A DNA stretch of 21,261 nucleotides, taken from positions 1 through 21,261 of IMG/VR virus record IMGVR_UViG_3300009149_007059; one strand, given 5' to 3'. A program made the translations under genes and the position numbers. This DNA comes from a virus. This document shows, in pieces, positions 9,111 through 21,261 of the stretch (its first letter is position 1; each line of letters begins with the position of its first letter). Below the pieces are notes generated by a model. It ran no database searches. It was given only the letters and a program-made list of their open reading frames with translations, and was not told where the DNA came from.

Positions 9111-10721
9111 TTAATCCTCTTTTCCTATGTTTTCAATCTGTTTAACTTTACCATTATCATAAGTAAGTGGACATTTACTTGCTGTTGATAAAATTAACGT
9201 TTTAGTTTTAACATCTTTAAAATTTAAAGAGTCTGTCCAACCATCAGTTAAAATAACTGAATTAAACATGTTAATTTTATTCTTTTTGTCTGTAACAAAA
9301 TCGATTCCAGGTTGTAAAACAGTTCCACCTAAACCACTAATTTTCATTTTTTCAAGTTCTTTTTTATCCTTAATTTTGTATACTTTTTGGATTCTGGTGT
9401 CACATTGAATTAGATTTATTCTAATATCATTTTGAAAGATATAAGATAAAACTTTTTCAAAATCCCCACCCATTGAACCAGATGTATCAAGAAGAACATT
9501 AATTTCATTACTGAATTTTTTATGTCCTTTTAATCCACTAATACCTCTACGATTTGGACGAACAATTGTTTTTTGTTTTTTTGTTCCAAATACATGGTTT
9601 GTCATGGTTCTTTTGATTTCTTTTAAATAATCTTTTTTAGTTTTTCTAAGTTTATTTAAAATAGTATCAATATCTCCTGATTCTAATCCACGGTTTTTAA
9701 GTTTGGTCATAATCCCTTCAACAATCTCCCTTTTTAATTCTTGAGGGATATCATCTGGTAAGTGTGCATCAAGAGTATTTTGTTCTTCTCTTTCTTCTCC
9801 TTCAAATATAGTGTCCATTGAGTACATCTCTGCACCATTTTGACCATAATCTCCATATTTGTTTTTACCTGAGGTATCTGTTTTTCCTTGATGAGATTTG
9901 TTGTTGTTATGCTCGTGTCCACAGCTAGGACATTTTGATGTACCACCTTGACCTTCACCTTGTCCTTCACTTTGACCTTGACCTTCACCTTGTCCTTCAC
10001 CTTCTCCACCTTCACCTTGACCTTTTTCGCCTTCACCTTGACCTTCACCTTTTTCGCCTTTTTTTCCATCTGAACCTTGACCGTCTTTTTCTTCTTCACC
10101 ATCACCTTCAGATTTTTCTTGACTTGCGCCACACTTAGGACATTTATTGGCTTCATTTTTCATTTTTTGAATCTTGTCCTTATTCTTTTCTTGCCATTTC
10201 CTTTTTTCGTTAACATACCATTCGTACAAATTTTCAAAAATAGGTTCACCTTTATATTCCTTAGGAATAAATAATGCACTATTGTTTTCAAATTCATCTT
10301 TTGGTACACTAATAAAAGGTTTAACTCCACTACCAAGACCTTGTTTTTTCATTATTTCATCAAAGATAACTTGGTTGATGATCATATCTTGGACGATGTT
10401 TGCAGAACGCATATTGTACCCAACTGACCTTTTCACGTGATCAAACAAAATGTGGAATTCTTCATGTACTAATAAGAAATTAACTTCTGGTTGAGGTAAT
10501 TTATCAATAAACCCTCTATCCCAATAGAAGTTCATTCCTTCTGAAGTAACATTTACTCCAGCTGTTGGAATATAAGGATTATTCTTTGACTCATAAAAGT
10601 TAATAAAAAGAGCGAATTCTCCATAATATGGTAAATTACCAGTTGCCATCATTGCTACTACAGATTCTGTGAGCTTTTCATGCATTTGGTCTGGTATTAC
10701 GTGTTTATAAAAATCTAACAT
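9111..10721 (-). CDS. putative metallopeptidase-like plus VWA (MIDAS) domain protein, DUF2201 type
   Basis: The 536 residues carry an N-terminal zincin-like domain with HEEFHILFDH (86-95), that is HExxH plus a third histidine, followed by QDMIIN (111-116), as in DUF2201_N putative metallopeptidases. CPKC (194-197) and CPSCGHEH (264-271) flank a low-complexity stretch rich in G, E, Q and K (about 201-262). The C-terminal VWA-like domain has a complete MIDAS: DTSGS (412-416), the GGT loop (465-467) and TDG (492-494). VWA proteins of this class are partners of MoxR-type AAA+ ATPases, and such an ATPase is encoded downstream in the same direction. Whether the HExxH site cuts peptide bonds is not established for the family. 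The gene has its own host-type promoter and terminator. No signal peptide was seen, so it is probably cytoplasmic. Confidence 0.88.
   Translation of the reverse strand: MLDFYKHVIPDQMHEKLTESVVAMMATGNLPYYGEFALFINFYESKNNPYIPTAGVNVTSEGMNFYWDRGFIDKLPQPEVNFLLVHEEFHILFDHVKRSVGYNMRSANIVQDMIINQVIFDEIMKKQGLGSGVKPFISVPKDEFENNSALFIPKEYKGEPIFENLYEWYVNEKRKWQEKNKDKIQKMKNEANKCPKCGASQEKSEGDGEEEKDGQGSDGKKGEKGEGQGEGEKGQGEGGEGEGQGEGQGQSEGQGEGQGGTSKCPSCGHEHNNNKSHQGKTDTSGKNKYGDYGQNGAEMYSMDTIFEGEEREEQNTLDAHLPDDIPQELKREIVEGIMTKLKNRGLESGDIDTILNKLRKTKKDYLKEIKRTMTNHVFGTKKQKTIVRPNRRGISGLKGHKKFSNEINVLLDTSGSMGGDFEKVLSYIFQNDIRINLIQCDTRIQKVYKIKDKKELEKMKISGLGGTVLQPGIDFVTDKKNKINMFNSVILTDGWTDSLNFKDVKTKTLILSTASKCPLTYDNGKVKQIENIGKED
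9944..10120 (-). repeat. coding low-complexity repeat (Gly-Glu-Gly-Gln-type)
   Basis: Many copies of a 6- to 12-base pattern (plus-strand accttcacctt-type) encode GEGQ, GEGE and GEKG units within the VWA protein. It lies between two CxxC pairs. Both other frames and the opposite strand are also open here as a by-product of the repeat, producing spurious ORFs. Confidence 0.8.
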
Positions 10722-10724
10722 ACT

Positions 10725-10756
10725 AATTTATTTTTAATTTATTTTTAATTTATTTA
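10725..10756 (-). repeat. three tandem 11-base units in the VWA gene leader
   Basis: The plus-strand unit aatttattttt occurs twice exactly and a third time almost exactly, filling the untranslated leader between the promoter and the ATG at 10721. On the mRNA it gives an A-rich stretch just before the start codon, which could help ribosome binding in Bacteroidota, where Shine-Dalgarno sequences are rare. Confidence 0.6.
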
Positions 10757-10766
10757 TTATTTTATA

Positions 10767-10797
10767 CAAAAATACAATTTATTTGTTACAATATCAA
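10767..10797 (-). promoter_or_regulatory. Bacteroidota-type promoter for the VWA gene
   Basis: On the minus strand, TTG (10797-10795), a 20-base spacer and TATTTTTG (10774-10767) match TTG-N19/20-TAnnTTTG. It lies about 46 bases upstream of the ATG at 10721. Confidence 0.7.
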
Positions 10798-10798
10798 A

Positions 10799-11098
10799 TT
10801 ATTCCTTCTTATTTTTTAACCAAAGTAAATATAATATTACAAATATTACAAAAGGTAAGAAGATAAAAGAATTCATTTGTATTGTTTTTTTTACTCCAAA
10901 CAATTTAACTTCCTCTTTAAGAATTCGGTATGTGCCCTTTATATAATAAAAGGTACTATCCATTTCTTGTTTAATTGTGTCAATATCTTCGACAACTTTT
11001 TTAGTGTCTAGTCTTTCAAAATCTTGTATTTCTCTTGATTGAGAAAAACACATTGTTACTGTGAGTAACATAAATAATACTAATCCAATCTTTTTCAT
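10799..11098 (-). CDS. small exported protein with signal peptide and C-terminal TM anchor
   Basis: Residues 1-20 of the 99 form a signal peptide (MKKIGLVLF... ending TMCFSQ), a style common in flavobacteria. Residues 21-75 are a charged, helical extracytoplasmic segment. Residues about 77-94 form a membrane helix containing Pro82, followed by the basic stop-transfer tail KNKKE. The topology is N-out/C-in. Two roles fit this layout. One is a substrate of the rhomboid protease encoded immediately upstream in the same direction, since rhomboids prefer N-out helices with helix breakers. The other is a spanin-like lysis protein; however, Cys17 lacks a proper lipobox (Met at -1), which argues against a lipoprotein. 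The gene has its own host-type promoter. Function is inference only. Confidence 0.75.
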   Translation of the reverse strand: MKKIGLVLFMLLTVTMCFSQSREIQDFERLDTKKVVEDIDTIKQEMDSTFYYIKGTYRILKEEVKLFGVKKTIQMNSFIFLPFVIFVILYLLWLKNKKE

Positions 11099-11123
11099 AA
11101 TTTTATATATTTATTATTTAATA

Positions 11124-11153
11124 CAAAGATAGGATTTTTTTTCTAAATTACAA
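11124..11153 (-). promoter_or_regulatory. Bacteroidota-type promoter for the exported TM protein gene
   Basis: On the minus strand, TTG (11153-11151), a 19-base spacer and TATCTTTG (11131-11124) match the consensus very well. It sits in the 57-base gap between the rhomboid gene stop and the ATG at 11098. Confidence 0.75.
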
Positions 11154-11155
11154 AA

Positions 11156-11860
11156 TTATTGGGTATATATTTTTTTATTTTGTTTCCACCAATATGTAAG
11201 GATATATCCACCTATTAAACCACCTAAATGTGCAAAGTGTCCAATCCCAAACCCAAGTGAAGGGTTTACTAATGATGCTAACCCAAATACTAATGAAAAT
11301 GCTGCGAAACCGTAAAATGCATATTTTAATTTCATCGGTATAATAAACATTAACATAACTTTTGCTTCTGGTGCAATAAATATAAATGCTGCGAATAATC
11401 CTGATAATGCTCCTGATGCGCCTACTGCTGGTCCTGTTCCAAGATACATCCAAAATATAGATGATACTAAGCCTGATAAGAAATAAACAATTAAAAATTT
11501 ACGTTGACCAATTACTCTTTCAAGTTGGTTTCCAAATGACCATAACATAAACATATTAAATGCTAAGTGTAAAAAACCACCATGTAAAAACATTGATGTT
11601 AATACTTGGTATGGTTGGAAGTTTGGGTTTGATGTTGGGTATAATGCATAATTTTGTATTATTGCACTATATAATAACGATGCGATAAATATTACAACAT
11701 TTAATACAATTAAATTTCTAACTGTGTTAGTTGAGTTGGCTATTGATGTAAATTTGTAGGTTTTTTCACGCCTTTTTTGTGTTTTAATTGCTTCTTTTTT
11801 ATATTCCCTATATTCAGGCGTATCTAACAATCCTCTCATTCGTTTACTTTTAGAACTCAT
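11156..11860 (-). CDS. rhomboid family intramembrane serine protease
   Basis: This polytopic inner-membrane protease cleaves transmembrane segments. I chose the ATG at 11860 (MSSKSKRMRG, 234 residues) over a TTG nine bases further up. A basic cytoplasmic N-terminus of about 45 residues precedes about six membrane helices. The catalytic set is intact: HxxxN in HLAFNM (H98, N102), the serine in GASGALSG (S149) and the histidine in GHFAHLGG (H211), with GxxxG-type packing in the last helix (GGLIGG). It appears complete and active. Rhomboids are common in bacteria but unusual in phages. The neighbour downstream on the same strand (10799-11098) encodes a single-TM exported protein that could be its substrate. 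The leader contains a TAAATTTG -7-like element at 11895-11902. Confidence 0.92.
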   Translation of the reverse strand: MSSKSKRMRGLLDTPEYREYKKEAIKTQKRREKTYKFTSIANSTNTVRNLIVLNVVIFIASLLYSAIIQNYALYPTSNPNFQPYQVLTSMFLHGGFLHLAFNMFMLWSFGNQLERVIGQRKFLIVYFLSGLVSSIFWMYLGTGPAVGASGALSGLFAAFIFIAPEAKVMLMFIIPMKLKYAFYGFAAFSLVFGLASLVNPSLGFGIGHFAHLGGLIGGYILTYWWKQNKKIYTQ

Positions 11861-11885
11861 AATAATCAATTTTTAAATGTTAATA

Positions 11886-12140
11886 CTATCTTTTCAAATT
11901 TATATCTTTGTTTTTTGTGGTTGTAAGTTTACACATTTTGTTTAATTCGACATGTCTAACAATATATCTCCATTCAGTCCTTAATTCTGCATTTTCTTCA
12001 TTTTCTAATTCTTTATTAAGTAATAATTCTATAATAATGTTAATGGTTAATAGATTTTTAATGTGGAGAAAAAAGGCATATATATACCATCTTTTTCTCC
12101 ACATTTTAACATACCATTTACAAGATTCATATGAAATCAT
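11886..12140 (-). CDS. possible small ORF coupled to the sigma factor gene
   Basis: The frame gives 84 residues with its ATG overlapping the sigma factor stop as ATGA, a common coupling arrangement. The C-terminal half (about 38-70, ELLLNKELENEENAEL onward) looks like a genuine charged helical protein. The N-terminal third is read from a long palindrome (12061-12104) and looks less protein-like. Either the whole ORF is real, or only the C-terminal part is, from a start I cannot identify. If the palindrome is a transcription terminator for the sigma gene, the ATGA start would be silent. No family was recognised. Confidence 0.4.
   Translation of the reverse strand: MISYESCKWYVKMWRKRWYIYAFFLHIKNLLTINIIIELLLNKELENEENAELRTEWRYIVRHVELNKMCKLTTTKNKDINLKR
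11895..11902 (-). promoter_or_regulatory. possible -7 promoter element (TAAATTTG) for the rhomboid gene
   Basis: This minus-strand match to TAnnTTTG lies 34 bases upstream of the chosen ATG. No TTG occurs at 19-21 bases, so the assignment is weak. It also lies inside the uncertain small ORF 11886-12140. Confidence 0.35.
12061..12104. repeat. 13-bp perfect inverted repeat with AT-rich centre
   Basis: The arms atgtggagaaaaa (12061-12073) and its exact complement (12092-12104) flank an 18-base spacer whose core (ggcatatatatacc) is nearly palindromic too. It lies 33 bases after the sigma factor stop on the minus strand. It could be a bidirectional terminator (inner GG/CC stem flanked by A and T tracts), a protein-binding palindrome, or an RNA regulatory hairpin. 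Confidence 0.7.
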
Positions 12141-12763
12141 AATTTAAAGCCATTTATATCTATGTCCTGAAATTTTTTAAATATTTTTTTCTTAATAATA
12201 CTTCTACCTTTTTTAATTTGAGATTTGATAGTAGATAAATTAATATTTAGATTTTCTGAAATTTCTTTATATGCCATACCTTCTATTTCTCTCATAATTA
12301 AAACTTTCTTGTATTTATAATCCTTTTCAGGTAAATTGTAGATTGTATCTTTAATCATATTTGCCTTTTTAACAAAAATATTATATTCATCTACGACTTT
12401 TTTCCCATCATCATATGGAATTAAATTAGATAGATTAAAATTTTCTGCCATTTCTTTATCTAAAGAATTGGTAGGGATTCGTTCACTATCTTTATGTGCT
12501 TTTTTTACAATATTTTCAGCTATTTTATAAATCCATGTATTTACCTGAGCACCACCTTCGTCAGGTCTCTTATATGTATTTATATTTAACATTGCTTGTA
12601 TAAAAGCATCATCTACATGATCTTCTGCTACTTCAAGATCCTTAGTGTATCTTGAAATATACCAAATTAATTTTGGTTTTTGATTCTTGTAAAATTCTTT
12701 AAAGTTAATACCAGTTCGTTCTTCGAACTTTAATTCTAGTTCATTATTAATTACTTCTTTCAT
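12137..12763 (-). CDS. ECF-type sigma-70 family RNA polymerase sigma factor
   Basis: The 208 residues have the two-domain ECF layout. Region 2 spans about 21-93, including AEDHVDDAFIQAMLNI and the NTWIYKIAENIVKKA promoter-melting segment. Region 4 spans about 139-193 with a helix-turn-helix at roughly 162-188 (GMAYKEISENLNINLSTIKS). A linker of about 45 residues joins them, and region 3 is absent. It should bind host core RNA polymerase and direct it to a dedicated promoter set. In a phage, the likely targets are late or middle genes, by analogy with T4 gp55. No anti-sigma factor is adjacent. No clear TTG/TAnnTTTG promoter precedes it; the gap to the upstream gene is 80 bases. Confidence 0.88.
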   Translation of the reverse strand: MKEVINNELELKFEERTGINFKEFYKNQKPKLIWYISRYTKDLEVAEDHVDDAFIQAMLNINTYKRPDEGGAQVNTWIYKIAENIVKKAHKDSERIPTNSLDKEMAENFNLSNLIPYDDGKKVVDEYNIFVKKANMIKDTIYNLPEKDYKYKKVLIMREIEGMAYKEISENLNINLSTIKSQIKKGRSIIKKKIFKKFQDIDINGFKL

Positions 12764-12843
12764 ATATATTATTTAGGACATTTATATAGTAAATAAATAA
12801 TGCTTTGTTTATATTTATTTTACTAAAACCTCTCTTATTTTTT

Positions 12844-13272
12844 TTAAATTTCTGTTACAGTGTTTTCAAATTTTAATAACCTGAAACCTAGAATCTTAAT
12901 TTCAGAGTCATTTTTATGAAACTCTGCCATTCTACCTTTTGTTTTAAATATATTATCCCAATCCTTAACACGTTCTTTCATTAATTTTATTTGTTCATCT
13001 GTTGGTTTATTATAAAAAAATATAGCAACAGAGTTATTCATCCCAGATTTTGGTTCTAGCCAACAACTTGTTGGTCTATAACATCCATGATCATCTGCAA
13101 CTTGCTGTATATCATCTTCAAAGTTAATTGGTAATTTTTCAACCATATCTTCTCCAACTCCACAATCTCCAACTACTCCTGTTAAATATGCTGTCATTTC
13201 TCTTTCAAAATTACCAGCATATGAATTTGTGTCTATGATAAATGCATAACCATTTTTTGGTCCATCTTCCAT
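12844..13272 (-). CDS. unknown conserved-looking phage protein
   Basis: The 142 residues begin with a beta-like segment (GYAFIIDTNSYAGNFEREM). A glycine- and cysteine-containing loop region follows (about 31-73, with C37, C64 and C70), then a helix and a basic C-terminal stretch. I recognise no family. Its ATG follows the stop of the upstream gene by a single base (TAA-G-ATG), so translation is almost certainly coupled to the 155-residue protein. It is the last gene of the minus-strand run that begins at 15103, ahead of the sigma factor. Confidence 0.75.
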   Translation of the reverse strand: MEDGPKNGYAFIIDTNSYAGNFEREMTAYLTGVVGDCGVGEDMVEKLPINFEDDIQQVADDHGCYRPTSCWLEPKSGMNNSVAIFFYNKPTDEQIKLMKERVKDWDNIFKTKGRMAEFHKNDSEIKILGFRLLKFENTVTEI

Positions 13273-13273
13273 C

Positions 13274-13741
13274 TTATTTCTCCTTTTCTTTCTTTTTATT
13301 TTCTAAAAATTCTCTAATTCTATCTCTCTCTTGTGTACTAGGGGTTGAGTGATAATAACCTATGTGTGTTCTTTGTAATATTTTATTTTTACATTTACAA
13401 TTTTCTTGCATCCACATTAATAACTTAAAATTATTTTCATTTTTTGGTAGTAAGTATTTATAATGACCTTCTTCTTGTATAATTATTATGCCATGTGTTT
13501 CATAAATTTCTTCCGTTACACATTCTTTTACACTAAATTGATACTTATCCCAATATGTTTTTTCTTTGTTTTTTGTTACTTTTTTAATAAAACTCCAAAA
13601 GAATTCAATATGATTTTTAGCTGCTTCATGATGATTTTTATGTGCTTTTATGTCACCACTATGAAATTTTTTCATATAATATGGTGACCCATAATACCTT
13701 ACTTTTAAAATGTAATAATCTTTACTGTTTAATAGTTTCAT
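13274..13741 (-). CDS. unknown basic phage protein
   Basis: The product has 155 residues, is rich in K, Y and H, and is very basic. It has a central helical, aromatic segment (about 36-75) and two cysteines in NCKCKN near residue 115-117. The tail is highly charged (about 137-155, ERDRIREFLENKKKEKEK). No domain was recognised. It is preceded by the 48-residue TM ORF and followed at one base by the 142-residue gene. A nucleic-acid-binding role would fit the charge but is not shown. Confidence 0.72.
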   Translation of the reverse strand: MKLLNSKDYYILKVRYYGSPYYMKKFHSGDIKAHKNHHEAAKNHIEFFWSFIKKVTKNKEKTYWDKYQFSVKECVTEEIYETHGIIIIQEEGHYKYLLPKNENNFKLLMWMQENCKCKNKILQRTHIGYYHSTPSTQERDRIREFLENKKKEKEK

Positions 13742-13782
13742 TTGTTTTTGATCTCCCCCATTTATTTTTATAGATTTTGGTA

Positions 13783-13929
13783 TTATTTACCTCTTTTCAT
13801 TTTTAAAATTTCATACTTAATAAAATTAACAGCATCATCAATCATACCAACTTTTGTTGCGTAATATGTATACCAAATAATAAGGATAAAAAATACTACA
13901 ATACAAATAATCATTTCTGTTTCACTCAT
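13783..13929 (-). CDS. 48-residue single-TM microprotein
   Basis: Translating the complement from the ATG at 13929 gives MSETEMIICIVVFFILIIWY followed by a polar helix and the basic end KMKRGK, then TAA. Residues about 6-23 are a clear membrane helix with a short acidic N-terminus and a C-terminal cytoplasmic or periplasmic tail. It fills the gap between the zinc-knuckle gene (5 bases away) and the 155-residue gene (41 bases), consistent with gene-dense phage packing. The function is unknown. Confidence 0.6.
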   Translation of the reverse strand: MSETEMIICIVVFFILIIWYTYYATKVGMIDDAVNFIKYEILKMKRGK

Positions 13930-13934
13930 TGTTT

Positions 13935-14171
13935 TTATAGTTTATTTAAATTCTCCAATTTTTTTTCTCTGATAAATTTTTCAATAATATTAAAATCTAT
14001 ACTTTCTAATAATACAATAGGATCTATTCCCTTAAATTGTCCTTTTTTGATTGTTAAATCAGGTTTTGACCAATTTGGTACTTTATACATACACATATTA
14101 CATCGTCCATAACCAAATATTTCCTGACTAAAACATTCTATACAACCACCATGGTATATTTTTGTTGCCAT
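13935..14171 (-). CDS. small zinc-knuckle protein
   Basis: The 78-residue protein contains CIEC (10-13) and CNMC (24-27), two CxxC pairs separated by ten residues, predicted to bind one zinc ion. A short beta or loop region follows, then a C-terminal helix (about 52-77). The fold resembles small phage zinc-ribbon proteins that often contact nucleic acid or polymerase, but no specific family was recognised. Its ATG lies three bases after the stop of a 21-codon ORF and five bases upstream of the next ORF, indicating a compact operon. Confidence 0.75.
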   Translation of the reverse strand: MATKIYHGGCIECFSQEIFGYGRCNMCMYKVPNWSKPDLTIKKGQFKGIDPIVLLESIDFNIIEKFIREKKLENLNKL

Positions 14172-14174
14172 TTT

Positions 14175-14240
14175 TTATTTTAAAAATATTAAATAAAAAG
14201 CCAATATAATAAAAAATAAATATAGTAATAATTCCTTCAT
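14175..14240 (-). CDS. possible 21-residue hydrophobic micro-ORF
   Basis: The complement reads ATG then MKELLLYLFFIILAFYLIFLK and TAA: almost entirely one membrane helix with charged ends. It exactly fills the gap between the stop at 14255 and the ATG at 14171, with an AAA spacer before the next start. The position and sensible sequence favour a real micro-ORF or a translation-coupling leader, but AT-rich DNA gives such hydrophobic ORFs by chance easily. Confidence 0.35.
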   Translation of the reverse strand: MKELLLYLFFIILAFYLIFLK

Positions 14241-14254
14241 TATATTAATTATTA

Positions 14255-15103
14255 TTAAACTTTTTCAATTGCTTCAATAATTCTTCTCGTTTCTCTTGCG
14301 ATAACAGAAGAATCTGATTCTTTATATGAATTAACATATGCCTCAAACACAGTTTTTGCATTTAATTTTAAATCACCAAGGGTATCAATGTTACGTCCAC
14401 ATAACCCCCATAATCGTCTATCGTTTTTAAGTCCATGATAACGTCTCAGATTTTGAAACATTACTTGAAGTTTTAAATCAACAGTTTTAATTATTCTTCC
14501 TTCTTTATTATATAACATGTTTTTACAAACTTCAAGTAAAGATATTTCTTTGTTTTTAAGATCTTCAATTGTTTTAATATGAAAATCAATATCAATATCA
14601 AAATTGATTAAGTTGTTAGAAAATGCTTTGATTTTGTCTGGAAGGGATGATTTATAGTGCTTGTTGCTGAAACTTGTTAAAATAATACATGATTCAATTC
14701 GCCCAAAACTATTGAGTTTAACTAACCCAACATTCATAGATAATGCTCTTGACCTGTCAGTTGAATTAACAATACTGAACATTTTTTCGTATTTTTCATT
14801 GTCAATATATATTTCATCACCAACTAACCGAATCTCTTGTACACCACTTGCGGCTTTAAGAGAATATTTATCAGGTGTAAAATAATTTTGAATTTGTGAA
14901 ATAATTGATTTTGAGAAGGTTGTGAAGTCAAAGTTATAATAAACTTTAGAAACATCAACTTTACATATTTCTCTACCATCATACGATGTTGTTAAACGAC
15001 CATTTTCTAATTTATTAGAAAACTTATCAAGATTTTCATTAATTTCCTCAGCGTTGAATTCATTTTTGATTGCGACTGTTCTAGGTGCGAAATAATAACT
15101 CAT
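14255..15103 (-). CDS. phage conserved protein, possibly DUF932-like
   Basis: From the ATG at 15103 (MSYYFAPRTVAIKNEF) the protein has 282 residues. A nine-codon-longer start at TTG 15130 is rejected because that TTG lies inside the promoter -7 element. The middle (about 95-140, with VNSTDRSRALSMNVGL) faintly resembles DUF932 proteins of phages and plasmids, which have an NS-DGS-AL pattern and are of unknown function. The C-terminal third is helical and basic (ARETRRIIEAIEKV end). No catalytic motif was recognised. It has one of the clearest host promoters in the window and heads a run of coupled small genes reaching to 12844. The family assignment is tentative. Confidence 0.72.
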   Translation of the reverse strand: MSYYFAPRTVAIKNEFNAEEINENLDKFSNKLENGRLTTSYDGREICKVDVSKVYYNFDFTTFSKSIISQIQNYFTPDKYSLKAASGVQEIRLVGDEIYIDNEKYEKMFSIVNSTDRSRALSMNVGLVKLNSFGRIESCIILTSFSNKHYKSSLPDKIKAFSNNLINFDIDIDFHIKTIEDLKNKEISLLEVCKNMLYNKEGRIIKTVDLKLQVMFQNLRRYHGLKNDRRLWGLCGRNIDTLGDLKLNAKTVFEAYVNSYKESDSSVIARETRRIIEAIEKV

Positions 15104-15127
15104 ATCTATATTTTTAATTTGTTTATA

Positions 15128-15158
15128 CAAAGATACATATAATTTATTTAATTGCCAA
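15128..15158 (-). promoter_or_regulatory. Bacteroidota-type promoter for the 15103-12844 operon
   Basis: On the minus strand, TTG (15158-15156), a 20-base spacer and TATCTTTG (15135-15128) fit the consensus exactly. The start site would fall near 15121, about 18 bases before the ATG at 15103, which also fixes that ATG as the start. Confidence 0.78.
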
Positions 15159-15169
15159 TTTTTTTCAAG

Positions 15170-15475
15170 TTAAATAGCCAAATTATTTAATTTTATTTTT
15201 CTAATAATTGAATTAAAATTTTTTGTTTCAAATAATTTATCAAAACTATAACAACAATATACTTTTTCTTTTTTAATTATAGTGTAATAATGTATAGAAC
15301 ATTTAACTTCAACACTCCCGTTAAAATTTAAAAAATATCTATTTATGCCAATTTTTAAAATAATAGATTTTTTTGGTATTACTAATTTTGGGTCTATATC
15401 AAAAATATCTAACAATGAATTTAATGATTTGTTATTTTTTGTTGGGTATTTTAATGTATAATGATATTTTTCCAT
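15170..15475 (-). CDS. unknown small basic protein
   Basis: The 101 residues are basic and beta-rich in pattern (alternating hydrophobic and charged stretches from about 35 to 80), with two adjacent cysteines in VYCCYSFD. No family is recognised, and no signal peptide or membrane helix is present. It is the first minus-strand gene next to the divergent sheath gene. The only promoter hint is a TATATTTG element at 15482-15489, directly upstream of the ATG. The codon use is as AT-rich as its neighbours. Confidence 0.65.
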   Translation of the reverse strand: MEKYHYTLKYPTKNNKSLNSLLDIFDIDPKLVIPKKSIILKIGINRYFLNFNGSVEVKCSIHYYTIIKKEKVYCCYSFDKLFETKNFNSIIRKIKLNNLAI

Positions 15476-15481
15476 GAGTCA

Positions 15482-15489
15482 CAAATATA
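15482..15489 (-). promoter_or_regulatory. possible -7 element (TATATTTG) for the 101-residue gene
   Basis: This minus-strand match to TAnnTTTG lies seven bases upstream of the ATG at 15475. No TTG occurs 19-21 bases further up. If used, the message would be nearly leaderless, so this is uncertain. Confidence 0.3.
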
Positions 15490-15610
15490 CAAAAAAATAC
15501 TTATATCTTGCATTATTTTTAGATTTTTTTCATAAAAAAGTTTTAATATATAATGTATAAAATAAATAGGAAAATGTAAAAGAGATTTTTCTTATAAAAA
15601 TATATTAATA

Positions 15611-15618
15611 TATAAATA
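15611..15618 (+). promoter_or_regulatory. possible T4-late-like box (TATAAATA) before the sheath gene
   Basis: TATAAATA, identical to the T4 late promoter core, lies 17 bases before the sheath ATG. No host-type TAnnTTTG element occurs in the 160-base divergent region on this strand. The surroundings are nearly pure A/T, so a chance match is quite possible. Confidence 0.3.
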
Positions 15619-15635
15619 AAAATAATTATTAAATT

Positions 15636-18587
15636 ATGCCAATTAAAGACAAAGATTTCGGAAAATACAAAAGACCAGGTATTTTTATAGAAGAGATTGA
15701 TAATAGTATTATTGAACTTCCAGTACAGAATGTTCTTATAAATTTAGTACCAGGTTTTTCTAAAAAAGGTCCTTTCAATGCACCAATTTATGTGACAAAC
15801 CCTAATGATTTTGAAGCAATTTATGGTGAGGATGATAGACGATTAGAAAATAAAGGATCATATTTTCATAAAACAGTTAAACAAATGTTGAAAAGTGGAC
15901 CAGTTTGGGCGTTGAACTTATTAGATACTAATGCAAACAGAGATAAGGTTGACTGGCAATCTATTTCAGTATCAGCACAATATGAAAATAGTGATGTTAA
16001 AAGATCTGCTTATTCATCTTTTTTTAATCGTCAAGATTTTTGGGAAAGAGACACAGATGCATTCTTAAATGTTGTTAAACAAGACAATTTTGGTGTTGAC
16101 GTTAAAGATCAACTATTTCACATAACAAATATGGGAGATAAAGATATTACTGTGTTTATGTTTAAATCAGATGTTACTGGTTTTGATATTACAGCAGAAG
16201 AATGGTATGGGGATAGAACAAAAGTTCCAGCTTATATTGATTATAGAGAATGGATTTCAGATTATCTAGTGTCAATAGTTATACTTGCTGGTGATTGGTC
16301 AGATTATAAAACATTAAGTAATGATACTACATTCTCAAAGTATTTCAATAGAAACGGTTTGATAAAAGAACAAGTAAATAACTTACTTAATGAAAGAACA
16401 GTTAGTGTTCTTGGTAGCTATGATTGCTCATTAATTCCATATTTCAAAGATTTAAATAGTAGAGATATGTATATTAAAAATGTCATTAATAATAATACAG
16501 ATAAAACAGGGTTGTTCTGTACTTATAATGAAAACGTATTATTGGAGGCAGATTTTAAAATAGGTAATCCTGATATTATTGGTGATGTTCTTGTAGGTCA
16601 AAATTATTCAAGTGTTAAATTTATGTCATATGATACTTCACTTAAAGAACAATTAACATATAGTCAAAAATGGTTGGACACTAGTAATAACGTTATTACA
16701 ACTAACCCTGATAGTTATACTGTCGCAAAAACCGTCTTAGATGATAGAACAGGTATTTGGATGAATGGTAAAGTTTTTGATATAAATTACGCAGCATCTA
16801 ACCCAACAACAGGTGTAACAGGGGCAACATATGACTTAGATATTGAGGGTGGAACTTATCCATATTATATAGTTGATGGTGAAATGGTTGAAGATTTCGT
16901 TACACAAACAATAACATTGAGTGGAATATCAACATCATTAGGATCAAGATATGACATACTTTATATGACAAACGATAGTACTGTTAATATACAATATGGT
17001 GTACCTTCAAACTTGACAACAGGTGCAATTATTCCTGATTATACATTAAGCTTAGAAAGTACAATTATATTGGGTAGGTTATACTTAGTTAATAATGGGG
17101 TATCAGGCGCAACATTAACATATGATCCAGTTACAGTAGATACCTCTGGGTATGTTGACCTTGCAAGTATTTTAAATTATGGTATTGAAGTTACTGATAC
17201 TTATGATTCATTAGGAACATATTTAAATCTTGAATTTAAAGGTACAGCAGGACAAGCAGGTGAATATAGCGACTATAAGTATTTAAGGACGTTACAAGCA
17301 TTTAATGAAATTTATGATAGGATAACATCTAAAAGTGTTCTTGTACAATCAGGAACAACAGGTGATTTTACAGTTGGAAATAAAGTTCCAATTTCAGCAA
17401 TAGTCCCAGTTGACGCAACAACTACGGTTAACGCAAGTGTTAAGTTATATGTTACTGCACCAGATACTTGTCATGTATTAAATAAATTCTTAATATATTA
17501 TAATGATGATGAGTTTTTATTACATAACGAAGTTATAGATACTAGCTCACTTAAAACCCGTTATGATGTTCTTGGTACAACAACAAAAGTAGGTATAGTA
17601 GCAACATATTCACAACTATATCAAGATTATTATAATGGTATTATAAACAATTTAGATTATTTTTATGTAAATAATGATAGTGGATCAACTAATAAAATTA
17701 TGATGAAGATGTTTATGAATCAAAGTGAATTGCTTACTGTTAATTTCCTATCTGCAATTAATCCTGATGTTGAATATGATGTAGATAATGCAGATTATGA
17801 AGATGTATTAAAATATAATCTTTCATTAATATTACATTCTAATAGATCAAATTGGGAACAATCAGTTGAAATTGAGCAAATTGATGAAGATGATTTAACA
17901 ATTATTCAAAAAATTTGGGTTGATAAAAATAGATACTCTGAAGTTACAAAAGGTAGTTATCTTGCAGCTTATTATGATGAAGATAATTGGGAAACAGGTG
18001 GTGCAGGATATTTAGAAGGTTCAACCCCTAGAAAATTAACTAGAATATTAGATGTTAAAAATGATACTAATAATGTAGATCTTAAAATACTTTATACAGA
18101 TGCACCAATTAAAATTGTAGATTATGATATAGCAACTGGCACAACCAGAATAGATTATCAAACATTTACTTATCCTTCAATTGACACATATGTTACAGAG
18201 TATAAAGCATTGAAAATATCTCCATTTGTTGTACATCAAGATTCAATTCCTGATGGAACAGATACAAGACAATATTCAATACTTGATATTATACAAAAAG
18301 ATACTAATCTTGCCCAAGCATTAGCAGACAAAAATAAAATATCTTGGAGATATTTAATTGATTCATTTGGACTTGGACTTGAACCAGTTGAAAATTATGG
18401 ATCTAAACAACAACTTGTTGATCTTTGTGGTCTGAAACTTAATGCATTAGGTTTTATTAATATGCCAAGTGCAAGAATATTTAGAGATTCAACTAATCCA
18501 TCATTTGTTGATACTGACGGTGTATTAGATATTCAATATATTAAAGCAGGTGCTGATGATAGTAAAAATCCAGATTATTACTACTAA
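15636..18587 (+). CDS. contractile tail sheath protein, N-terminal part up to an in-frame TAA
   Basis: This 983-residue segment is the bulk of a tail sheath protein, which polymerises around the tail tube and contracts during infection. It opens with the typical sheath start (YKRPGIFIEEIDNS, then the LINLVPGFSKKGPFNAPIYV strand). The region about 130-380 is sheath-like and contains SVLGSYDCSLIPYF. An inserted beta-rich domain lies at about 380-500 (GSRYDILYMTND...ILGRLYLVNNG), similar in pattern to add-on domains of phage baseplate and appendage proteins. From about 860 (DSIPDGTDTRQYSILDII onward) it re-enters the conserved C-terminal sheath domain. It then stops at TAA (18585-18587), immediately after DYYY. 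The same frame continues for 225 codons of obvious sheath sequence, so the natural product should be about 1209 residues. Alone, this fragment would lack the C-terminal domain needed for assembly. Confidence 0.9.
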   Translation: MPIKDKDFGKYKRPGIFIEEIDNSIIELPVQNVLINLVPGFSKKGPFNAPIYVTNPNDFEAIYGEDDRRLENKGSYFHKTVKQMLKSGPVWALNLLDTNANRDKVDWQSISVSAQYENSDVKRSAYSSFFNRQDFWERDTDAFLNVVKQDNFGVDVKDQLFHITNMGDKDITVFMFKSDVTGFDITAEEWYGDRTKVPAYIDYREWISDYLVSIVILAGDWSDYKTLSNDTTFSKYFNRNGLIKEQVNNLLNERTVSVLGSYDCSLIPYFKDLNSRDMYIKNVINNNTDKTGLFCTYNENVLLEADFKIGNPDIIGDVLVGQNYSSVKFMSYDTSLKEQLTYSQKWLDTSNNVITTNPDSYTVAKTVLDDRTGIWMNGKVFDINYAASNPTTGVTGATYDLDIEGGTYPYYIVDGEMVEDFVTQTITLSGISTSLGSRYDILYMTNDSTVNIQYGVPSNLTTGAIIPDYTLSLESTIILGRLYLVNNGVSGATLTYDPVTVDTSGYVDLASILNYGIEVTDTYDSLGTYLNLEFKGTAGQAGEYSDYKYLRTLQAFNEIYDRITSKSVLVQSGTTGDFTVGNKVPISAIVPVDATTTVNASVKLYVTAPDTCHVLNKFLIYYNDDEFLLHNEVIDTSSLKTRYDVLGTTTKVGIVATYSQLYQDYYNGIINNLDYFYVNNDSGSTNKIMMKMFMNQSELLTVNFLSAINPDVEYDVDNADYEDVLKYNLSLILHSNRSNWEQSVEIEQIDEDDLTIIQKIWVDKNRYSEVTKGSYLAAYYDEDNWETGGAGYLEGSTPRKLTRILDVKNDTNNVDLKILYTDAPIKIVDYDIATGTTRIDYQTFTYPSIDTYVTEYKALKISPFVVHQDSIPDGTDTRQYSILDIIQKDTNLAQALADKNKISWRYLIDSFGLGLEPVENYGSKQQLVDLCGLKLNALGFINMPSARIFRDSTNPSFVDTDGVLDIQYIKAGADDSKNPDYYY

Positions 18588-19265
18588 TTCGCACATAGAA
18601 ATGGTGATATTGATGGAAGAAGTTGTGTGGGTTATTTCTTCCCATATGTGAGAATATATGATAATGGAATACCTAAATGGTTTCCACCAGCATCTCATGC
18701 AGCAACAACATATATGCACAAATTTACATCAAGTGTTGCTGGTACAGTACCTTGGACAATTTGTGCAGGTATTACTAATGGAAGAGTTCAAAATATCACT
18801 AAAACTGAAATGGATTTTACTAATACAGATTTAGAATATTTACATCAAATGAACGCTAACCCAATTATTTACAAAATAAATAATGGTTACTGTATCAACG
18901 ATGAAGCATCAGCACAAGTATTCCCTGCCACTTCACTTAGTTTCTTACACTCAAGAGAAATATTAATTGAACTTGAAAATAGACTATATGATATGCTATT
19001 GAAATACCAATGGAGTTTCAACACACCTGAAATCAGAGCTGAAATTAAATATAGAGCTGATAAAATCTGTAAAGATATGCTAGATAATGACGCATTCTAC
19101 GATTTCTGGAATGTTTGTGATGAAACAAACAATACAGATTATGTGATCGACCTTCAAATGGGGGTTTTAGATACTTATATTGAGGTGATTAAAGGTATGG
19201 GTATTATAGTAAACAATATTACAATAATGAAAAAAGGTGATATACAATCTATGGGATTCAAATAA
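18588..19265 (+). CDS. tail sheath protein, C-terminal domain, in frame after the TAA
   Basis: The frame continues directly from the TAA: FAHRNGDIDG, then GYFFPYVRIYDNGIPKWFPP, then SHAATTYMHKF and the PWTICAGITNGRV segment, which is the conserved end of phage sheath proteins (strand, VPPSGH-like loop and W-K-A-P-like region). The last part (ILIELENRLYDMLLKYQWSF to the final GFK) is the usual sheath C-terminal helical and beta segment. It has no ATG near its beginning and no leader. The first alternative start in frame is a GTG at 18627, placed in the middle of a conserved strand, so independent translation is unlikely. It is therefore either translated by stop-codon readthrough, broken by a nonsense mutation, or split by a base error in the sequence. 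Confidence 0.85.
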   Translation, partial: FAHRNGDIDGRSCVGYFFPYVRIYDNGIPKWFPPASHAATTYMHKFTSSVAGTVPWTICAGITNGRVQNITKTEMDFTNTDLEYLHQMNANPIIYKINNGYCINDEASAQVFPATSLSFLHSREILIELENRLYDMLLKYQWSFNTPEIRAEIKYRADKICKDMLDNDAFYDFWNVCDETNNTDYVIDLQMGVLDTYIEVIKGMGIIVNNITIMKKGDIQSMGFK

Positions 19266-19287
19266 TAGAAATACCAAATTGATAAAT

Positions 19288-19315
19288 AAAAAGAGGAAAG
19301 AAATTTCCTCTTTTT
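19288..19315 (+). terminator. strong terminator after the tail sheath gene
   Basis: A perfect 12-base stem (19288-19299 with 19304-19315) closes on a GAAA tetraloop, with an A tract before and a T tract after. It begins 23 bases after the sheath stop at 19265. It should end sheath transcription and isolate the downstream homing endonuclease gene. Confidence 0.88.
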
Positions 19316-19351
19316 TTATTTAGTAAACTTTAGTTATTTCATTTACTATAT

Positions 19352-21085
19352 ATGTATAAAAGATACCAATTTATGAATAATATAGAAACAATAAAAAAAG
19401 AGAATGGACCTTCAGGTAAAATGTACACTGAAAAATATGTTAAAAATAATTATATAGAAATTTATGATGATGTTATAAATTTTTGTAAAGAAAGTTTACC
19501 TGATTTACCTTTTAAAGAGAAAGTGTATCATTATGTTAATAATTTAGATAGTATGATATTTTGTTCTAACCCAGATTGTAATAATTTAGTTAAATTTAAA
19601 AATTCAACCATCGGGTATTATAAGTATTGTTCTAATAAGTGTGTTAGTAGTGACCCTGAAGTAAAAAAAGTAAAAGAGGAAAAATCATATAAAAAATATG
19701 GAACTAAAGCACCAGGAATGTGTGATGTGATAAAAGAAAAAATGATAAAAACAAATCAAGAAAAATATGGAAGTAATAGTCCTATGCAAAATTTTGAAAT
19801 ACAAAATAAATCAAAAGAAACTCTTTTAAAAAATTATGGGGTAGATAATCCTAGTAAATCAAAGGAGATAACTGATAAAACAAAAAAAACTTGTTTATGT
19901 AGATATGGTGTAGATAATCCAAAAAAAAATAAAGATATAAATAATAAAATAAAAAAAACGATGGTGTTGAGATATGGTGTTGAATATGCTTTACAAAATA
20001 CTGAAATTAAAATAAAGGCAAAAGAAAAACAAATGATAACATTAGCAAAAAATATAAAAGAACTTTACACTGAATATGATATTTTGAAGATTGATAATGA
20101 AAATAAAAAATATATAATGAAGTGTGATAATGGGCATATATTTGAAATTGATTATACCTTATTAAATTCAAGAAGAAGAACAAACACATTGATATGTGTA
20201 GAATGTAATCCTATAAATAAAAGTATTTCTGGATTAGAAATTGAAATGGTTCAATTTATTCAAAAAAATTATAATGGTAGTATTATTCTTAATGATAGAG
20301 ATTTTATAGGTAAAGAGTTAGATATATTTTTGCCAAATTTAAATTTAGCATTTGAGTTTAATGGATTATGGTGGCATAATGAAATTAATAAACCAGATGA
20401 TTATCATTTAGTAAAAACAAATTTGTGTGTAGAAAAAAATATACAATTAATACATATATGGGAAGATGATTGGATTTATAAAAAAGATATAGTTAAATCT
20501 ATGATATTAAATAAATTAAATTTATCTACAAATAGAATTTTTGCACGTAAAACAAAAATAAAAAATATAATTGATAAAAAAATAATTAAAGAGTTTTTAG
20601 AAAAAAATCATATTCAAGGATTTGTTGGTAGTAAAGTTAAATTGGGCTTATTTTATAATGATGACCTGGTTAGTTTAATGACTTTTGGAAATAAAAGAAT
20701 AGTAATGAATGATAAAAATTATATAAATGAATGGGAATTAAGTAGATTTTGTAATAAATTAAACACCTCGGTTATAGGTGGGGCATCAAAATTATTTAAA
20801 TACTTTATTGGTAATTATGATCCGAAAGAAATAATAACATATGCTAATAGAAGTTATTCAAATGGATTGTTATATGAAAAATTAAATTTTAATTATTCTC
20901 ACATAACAAAACCAAATTATTATTATATTGTTGATAAAATAAGAAAACATAGGTTTACATACAGAAAAAATAAACTAATTAAAGATGGGTTTGATCCTAA
21001 AAAAACCGAACATCAAATAATGTCAGATAGAAAAATATATAGAATTTATGATTCAGGACAATTAAAATTTATATGGAAAAAATAA
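19352..21085 (+). CDS. free-standing homing endonuclease with YG-x-x-NP repeats and PD-(D/E)xK/Vsr-like nuclease domain
   Basis: The 577-residue protein has a clear modular layout. A zinc finger occupies 71-97 (C71, C76, C93, C97). Five repeats of about 23 residues follow between about 116 and 225, each with YG(V/T/S)-x-x-P and a charged helix, as in phage homing endonucleases, where they are thought to contact DNA. A treble-clef-like finger lies at about 258-285 (KCDNGHIF...CVEC). The nuclease core at about 294-375 has ELDIFLP (D324), LAFEFNG (E335, N337), WWH, YHL (H352) and IHIWEDDW, resembling Vsr-like/PD-(D/E)xK homing enzymes. The C-terminal domain (400-577) is typical of the same family. 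The gene follows the sheath terminator and has its own short leader, as expected for a selfish insertion. The start could be M8 (19373) instead. The target is probably a phage gene, possibly the neighbouring sheath gene. Confidence 0.85.
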   Translation: MYKRYQFMNNIETIKKENGPSGKMYTEKYVKNNYIEIYDDVINFCKESLPDLPFKEKVYHYVNNLDSMIFCSNPDCNNLVKFKNSTIGYYKYCSNKCVSSDPEVKKVKEEKSYKKYGTKAPGMCDVIKEKMIKTNQEKYGSNSPMQNFEIQNKSKETLLKNYGVDNPSKSKEITDKTKKTCLCRYGVDNPKKNKDINNKIKKTMVLRYGVEYALQNTEIKIKAKEKQMITLAKNIKELYTEYDILKIDNENKKYIMKCDNGHIFEIDYTLLNSRRRTNTLICVECNPINKSISGLEIEMVQFIQKNYNGSIILNDRDFIGKELDIFLPNLNLAFEFNGLWWHNEINKPDDYHLVKTNLCVEKNIQLIHIWEDDWIYKKDIVKSMILNKLNLSTNRIFARKTKIKNIIDKKIIKEFLEKNHIQGFVGSKVKLGLFYNDDLVSLMTFGNKRIVMNDKNYINEWELSRFCNKLNTSVIGGASKLFKYFIGNYDPKEIITYANRSYSNGLLYEKLNFNYSHITKPNYYYIVDKIRKHRFTYRKNKLIKDGFDPKKTEHQIMSDRKIYRIYDSGQLKFIWKK

Positions 21086-21109
21086 TTAAAAATATTTATA
21101 TATACTATC

Positions 21110-21261
21110 ATGATGATAAAAACATTTGAAAATTTTAATGAAGATCTTGTCGATAAATTACTAAATGATATCGAAGATAAAAACAAAATAATAAATGGAT
21201 ATTCTTGTGAATACGAATCCCAAGGAGCAATAGCATGGTACAATGGTAAATATTCAATATA
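21110..21261 (+). CDS. 5' part of an unknown phage protein (3' end outside window)
   Basis: The frame opens at ATG 21110 (MMIKTFENFNEDLVDKLLND) and stays open for 50 codons to the window edge. The next ATG (21113) could also be the start. The beginning, IKTFENFNED, resembles the N-terminal MKTFxEF-type segments of many T4-like small proteins, including the capsid-targeting signals of T4 internal head proteins. The rest (SCEYESQGAIAWYNGKYS) gives no family. It starts 24 bases after the homing endonuclease stop, on the plus strand. Confidence 0.6.
   Translation, partial: MMIKTFENFNEDLVDKLLNDIEDKNKIINGYSCEYESQGAIAWYNGKYSI

Follow-up and report, generated by a model that had tools for sequence, protein, structure and literature searches.

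A tail sheath frame interrupted by TAA

The window (the whole stretch of DNA analyzed here, a 21-kb viral fragment of 21,261 nucleotides) contains a reading frame that opens with an ATG at 15636 and meets an in-frame TAA at 18585-18587, directly after the residues DYYY. The same frame then remains open for 225 codons and is terminated by a second TAA at 19263-19265, so that the gene span 15636-19265 is divided into 983 and 225 codons:

15636..18587, plus strand: N-terminal part of the tail sheath gene, 983 codons, ending at the premature TAA (open reading frame; phrog_34521 tail sheath, E 3.8e-50; frame unbroken in the sister contig IMGVR_UViG_3300024262_005124)
18585..18587, plus strand: premature TAA, C>T relative to the sister's CAA (Gln) (codon comparison with 47 relatives; base-by-base comparison with the sister)
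18588..19265, plus strand: conserved C-terminal part of the sheath, the 225 codons left in the frame (phrog_34521 profile 755-951 of 962, E 4.1e-26; T4 gp18, 3J2M, residues 458-643, E 2.3e-7)

Residues 22-305 of the first piece align to positions 25-322 of the 962-position phrog_34521 (tail sheath) profile, and residues 16-214 of the second piece align to its C-terminal end; because both pieces fall on one profile, they represent a single gene interrupted by a stop. The sheath profile is thus matched at both ends of the frame, and solved structures of T4 gp18 match the C-terminal piece. These matches bear out a sequence-only reading of this DNA, which had recognized a tail sheath gene with an in-frame TAA followed by open sheath sequence to 19265. 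The gene is a broken copy of a contractile tail sheath gene. Both of its parts belong to the same family as T4 gp18 (PDB 3J2M), but the relatives' sheath proteins are of ~1209 residues compared with 659 for gp18, a long stretch separates their conserved ends, and the window gene, unlike gp18, carries a premature stop.

The conserved core of sheath proteins is assembled from N- and C-terminal parts together (PMC9230969). As written, the window does not encode both parts in a single chain, which ends at residue 983, whereas the sister does. Translation as written would halt there and the C-terminal part of the conserved core would be lost, so that the product is expected to be non-functional; we infer that the TAA would abolish sheath function.

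The codon at 18585 in relatives and in a near-identical contig

Searching IMG/VR with the part of the gene that follows the stop identified 47 relatives with 67-99% identity. At the aligned codon every one of the 47 encodes an amino acid, CAA or CAG (glutamine) in 45 and TCA (serine) in the other two, and none has a stop; the more distant 735-kb phage LR756501 has AGC, also serine. As the alignment indicates, the residue at 18585 is a conserved glutamine, not a tyrosine, and TAA is reached from CAA by one C-to-T transition. The earlier proposal that replacing TAA by TAT or TAC would give one continuous protein therefore holds arithmetically but does not describe the history of the site, and a tyrosine-codon origin is contradicted by relatives with glutamine (45/47) or serine (2/47). 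Searches for relatives in bacterial genomes and for near-identical DNA in phage records returned none, and when IMG/VR was scanned for the surrounding 35 bases, allowing C or T at the variable position, the sister alone was recovered, carrying C.

The sister contig (14,002 bases) aligns to window positions 9993-21261 with 99.9% identity; eight substitutions and one 2-base gap separate the two across 11,271 bases. Its sheath frame is uninterrupted, with CAA at 18585. The only gap, at 12769, removes 2 bases shortly before a sigma-factor-like gene begins (12137-12763, minus strand). Six of the eight substitutions lie inside the sheath gene, where sister and window differ, in that order, as follows:

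Codon 235: T/K
Codon 385: synonymous
Codon 835: synonymous
Codon 984: Q/stop
Codon 1028: R/H
Codon 1109: V/I

Apart from the stop, there are thus two synonymous differences and three replacements. Upstream of the stop are the T/K replacement and both synonymous differences, and the two differences 3′ of it (R/H at 18718 and V/I at 18960) are both replacements; at 18960, valine is present in 46 of 48 alignment rows, the remaining two being the window, with isoleucine, and one gap. About 5.4% of all possible single-base changes in the sheath gene create a stop, so no special cause has to be sought for one stop among six differences, which is unremarkable. Within a span of 376 bases, positions 18585, 18718, and 18960 all changed from G:C to A:T, but in a simulation on a partial comparison of window and sister three changes fall this close together by chance with P about 0.15, and we draw no conclusion from the clustering.

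Because a contig with 99.9% identity lacks it, the TAA is private to the window contig and very recent. At the level of sequence, comparison of the two contigs shows a recent single substitution at 18585, a C-to-T transition that turns the CAA of Gln984 into TAA and falls on a very recent branch. We regard the TAA as almost certainly an ordinary nonsense variant or a sequence error in an otherwise normal sheath gene, rather than an example of new decoding. The first reading had listed a nonsense mutant or base error among its options, and this option fits the sense codon in all relatives and the CAA in the sister.

Readthrough and reassignment of the stop codon

Programmed or tRNA-assisted readthrough of the TAA, giving a short and a full-length sheath protein, had been raised as the novel possibility. 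The frame beyond the stop does remain open and conserved, and the 81 bases that begin with the stop give a somewhat better fold than shuffled sequences (z -2.36), but the CAA-bearing sister has identical downstream bases, and those bases encode a conserved peptide. The two stems suggested as readthrough aids, which are equally present in the sister, are unconserved among relatives. Across 28 sequences, standard pairs occupy 39.9% of cells in the CACATA/TATGTG stem (shuffled mean, 41.5%) and 75.5% in the GTGTGGG/CCCATAT stem (shuffled mean, 75.6%), with no compensatory change in either; neither pairs better than its shuffled controls or behaves as a conserved stimulatory structure 3′ of the stop. 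The stop itself is found in none of the 47 relatives, and the comparison of homologous sheath genes that the sequence-only reading had proposed returned a sense codon in the 99.9%-identical contig and in every other relative, an outcome that the same reading had itself set against readthrough. Site-specific readthrough yielding two sheath forms is thus unsupported, and we consider it very improbable. A TAA fixed in a living strain and inefficiently read through by a suppressor tRNA, encoded elsewhere in the genome or by the host, again giving two sheath forms, is harder still to credit. Least credible of all, and in our view close to negligible, is that the phage reads TAA as glutamine. The replaced residue is indeed glutamine, which code 15 phages insert at TAG (PMC9523058), but both this known recoding to glutamine and the reassignment reported in huge phages with altered codes (PMC7162821) concern TAG rather than TAA. 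Reassignment should leave a codon that is rare as a terminator and recurrent in frame; here TAA ends 19 of 22 listed open reading frames (TGA 2, TAG 1), nearly all with only a short open frame after the stop, and conserved gene frames hold just one in-frame TAA. Relatives cover the window over about 11159-21259, and in that part the stop at 18585 alone lies in a gene's own frame where they have a residue; we read the other in-frame stop hits as shadow alignments on wrong frames or upstream of start codons. Glutamine makes up at least 90% of 15 sheath-alignment columns, and the window's codons at these are CAA at 12, CAG at one, AAA at one, and TAA at one. The stop usage and the 13 CAA or CAG codons at conserved glutamine positions refute general recoding of TAA in the window, as the earlier reading had also concluded. 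What the window shares with code 15 phages (PMC9523058) is a stop in place of glutamine within a late structural gene; it differs in that the codon is TAA, at a single site, in DNA where TAA is the normal terminator, in that relatives have CAA or CAG, and in that neither contig nor the larger relatives' arrays yielded a suppressor tRNA.

That search of the window, the sister, and the tRNA arrays of larger relatives identified no tRNA genes in either contig and no TTA, CTA, or TCA anticodons in the arrays. As the window is one fragment of its genome, a suppressor tRNA may lie elsewhere in that genome. The arrays of these larger relatives (L082-L091) have up to 17 tRNA genes in 5.5 kb and are rich in Pro, Thr, Gly, Val, Ala, and Arg tRNAs, and one relative (L084) has five consecutive Leu tRNAs. 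Translation of the C-terminal part on its own from GTG 18627 was also considered and rejected; this start would skip the first 13 codons past the stop, and the protein accounts for the purine-rich stretch ahead of it, since those bases are coding sequence in every relative. A literature search for readthrough in tail sheath genes returned nothing relevant. For a premature stop in a lone metagenomic contig, close relatives should be compared before readthrough is proposed.

Origin of the stop and the surrounding genes

Two origins would then fit the TAA: a true nonsense allele, belonging to a defective genome or to a minority variant taken up into the consensus, or an error in the base or the assembly. 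For a real allele we put the chance at about even; the phage genome bearing it would be defective or a minority type, and co-infection with intact phage might have sustained it for a time. True strain differences between the two contigs appear to exist, and the two replacements after the stop, with no synonymous change, would fit early decay; against this, only one genome and two downstream changes are available, no deletion, frameshift, or further stop was seen, and no other window gene aligned to relatives has a stop in its own frame (about 11159-21259). An error of base calling, DNA damage, or assembly consensus, with a sense codon in the living phage, we rate a shade below even. At 18585 the sister and 45 of 47 relatives have glutamine, the stop and both later differences (all G:C to A:T) follow the pattern of cytosine deamination, and the part lost belongs to an essential-looking conserved core, for which reason a true allele should be rare. 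However, window and sister also differ at two synonymous and other plausible sites, from which true strain differences between them probably exist, and the stop may be one of these. The replacements 3′ of the stop and the G:C to A:T trend could reflect either decay after the stop or damage and errors.

The phage that carries the variant is an uncultivated myophage with a distant relation to huge phages. The closest phage-record matches to the C-terminal part of the sheath are in huge phages, including the 735-kb LR756501 (Al-Shayeb et al. 2020; PMC7162821), at 53-64% identity; the relation is only distant, and it is the 735-kb phage that has serine at the codon 984 position. The window documents a family of long sheath proteins (about 1200 residues) in uncultivated, probably large myophages.

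Between the sheath gene and a conserved gene of 291 residues is a 101-residue open reading frame (15170-15475, minus strand) which, among the relatives compared, is found in the sister only. Downstream of the sheath gene, at 19352-21085, is a 577-residue open reading frame with a DUF7487 match and internal repeats (two offset self-matches at 19806-20030); our guess is that it may be a homing-endonuclease-like mobile gene. DNA similar to it lies downstream of the sheath gene in several relatives (L004, L012, and L013), and another (L022) has two matches to it, on opposite strands.
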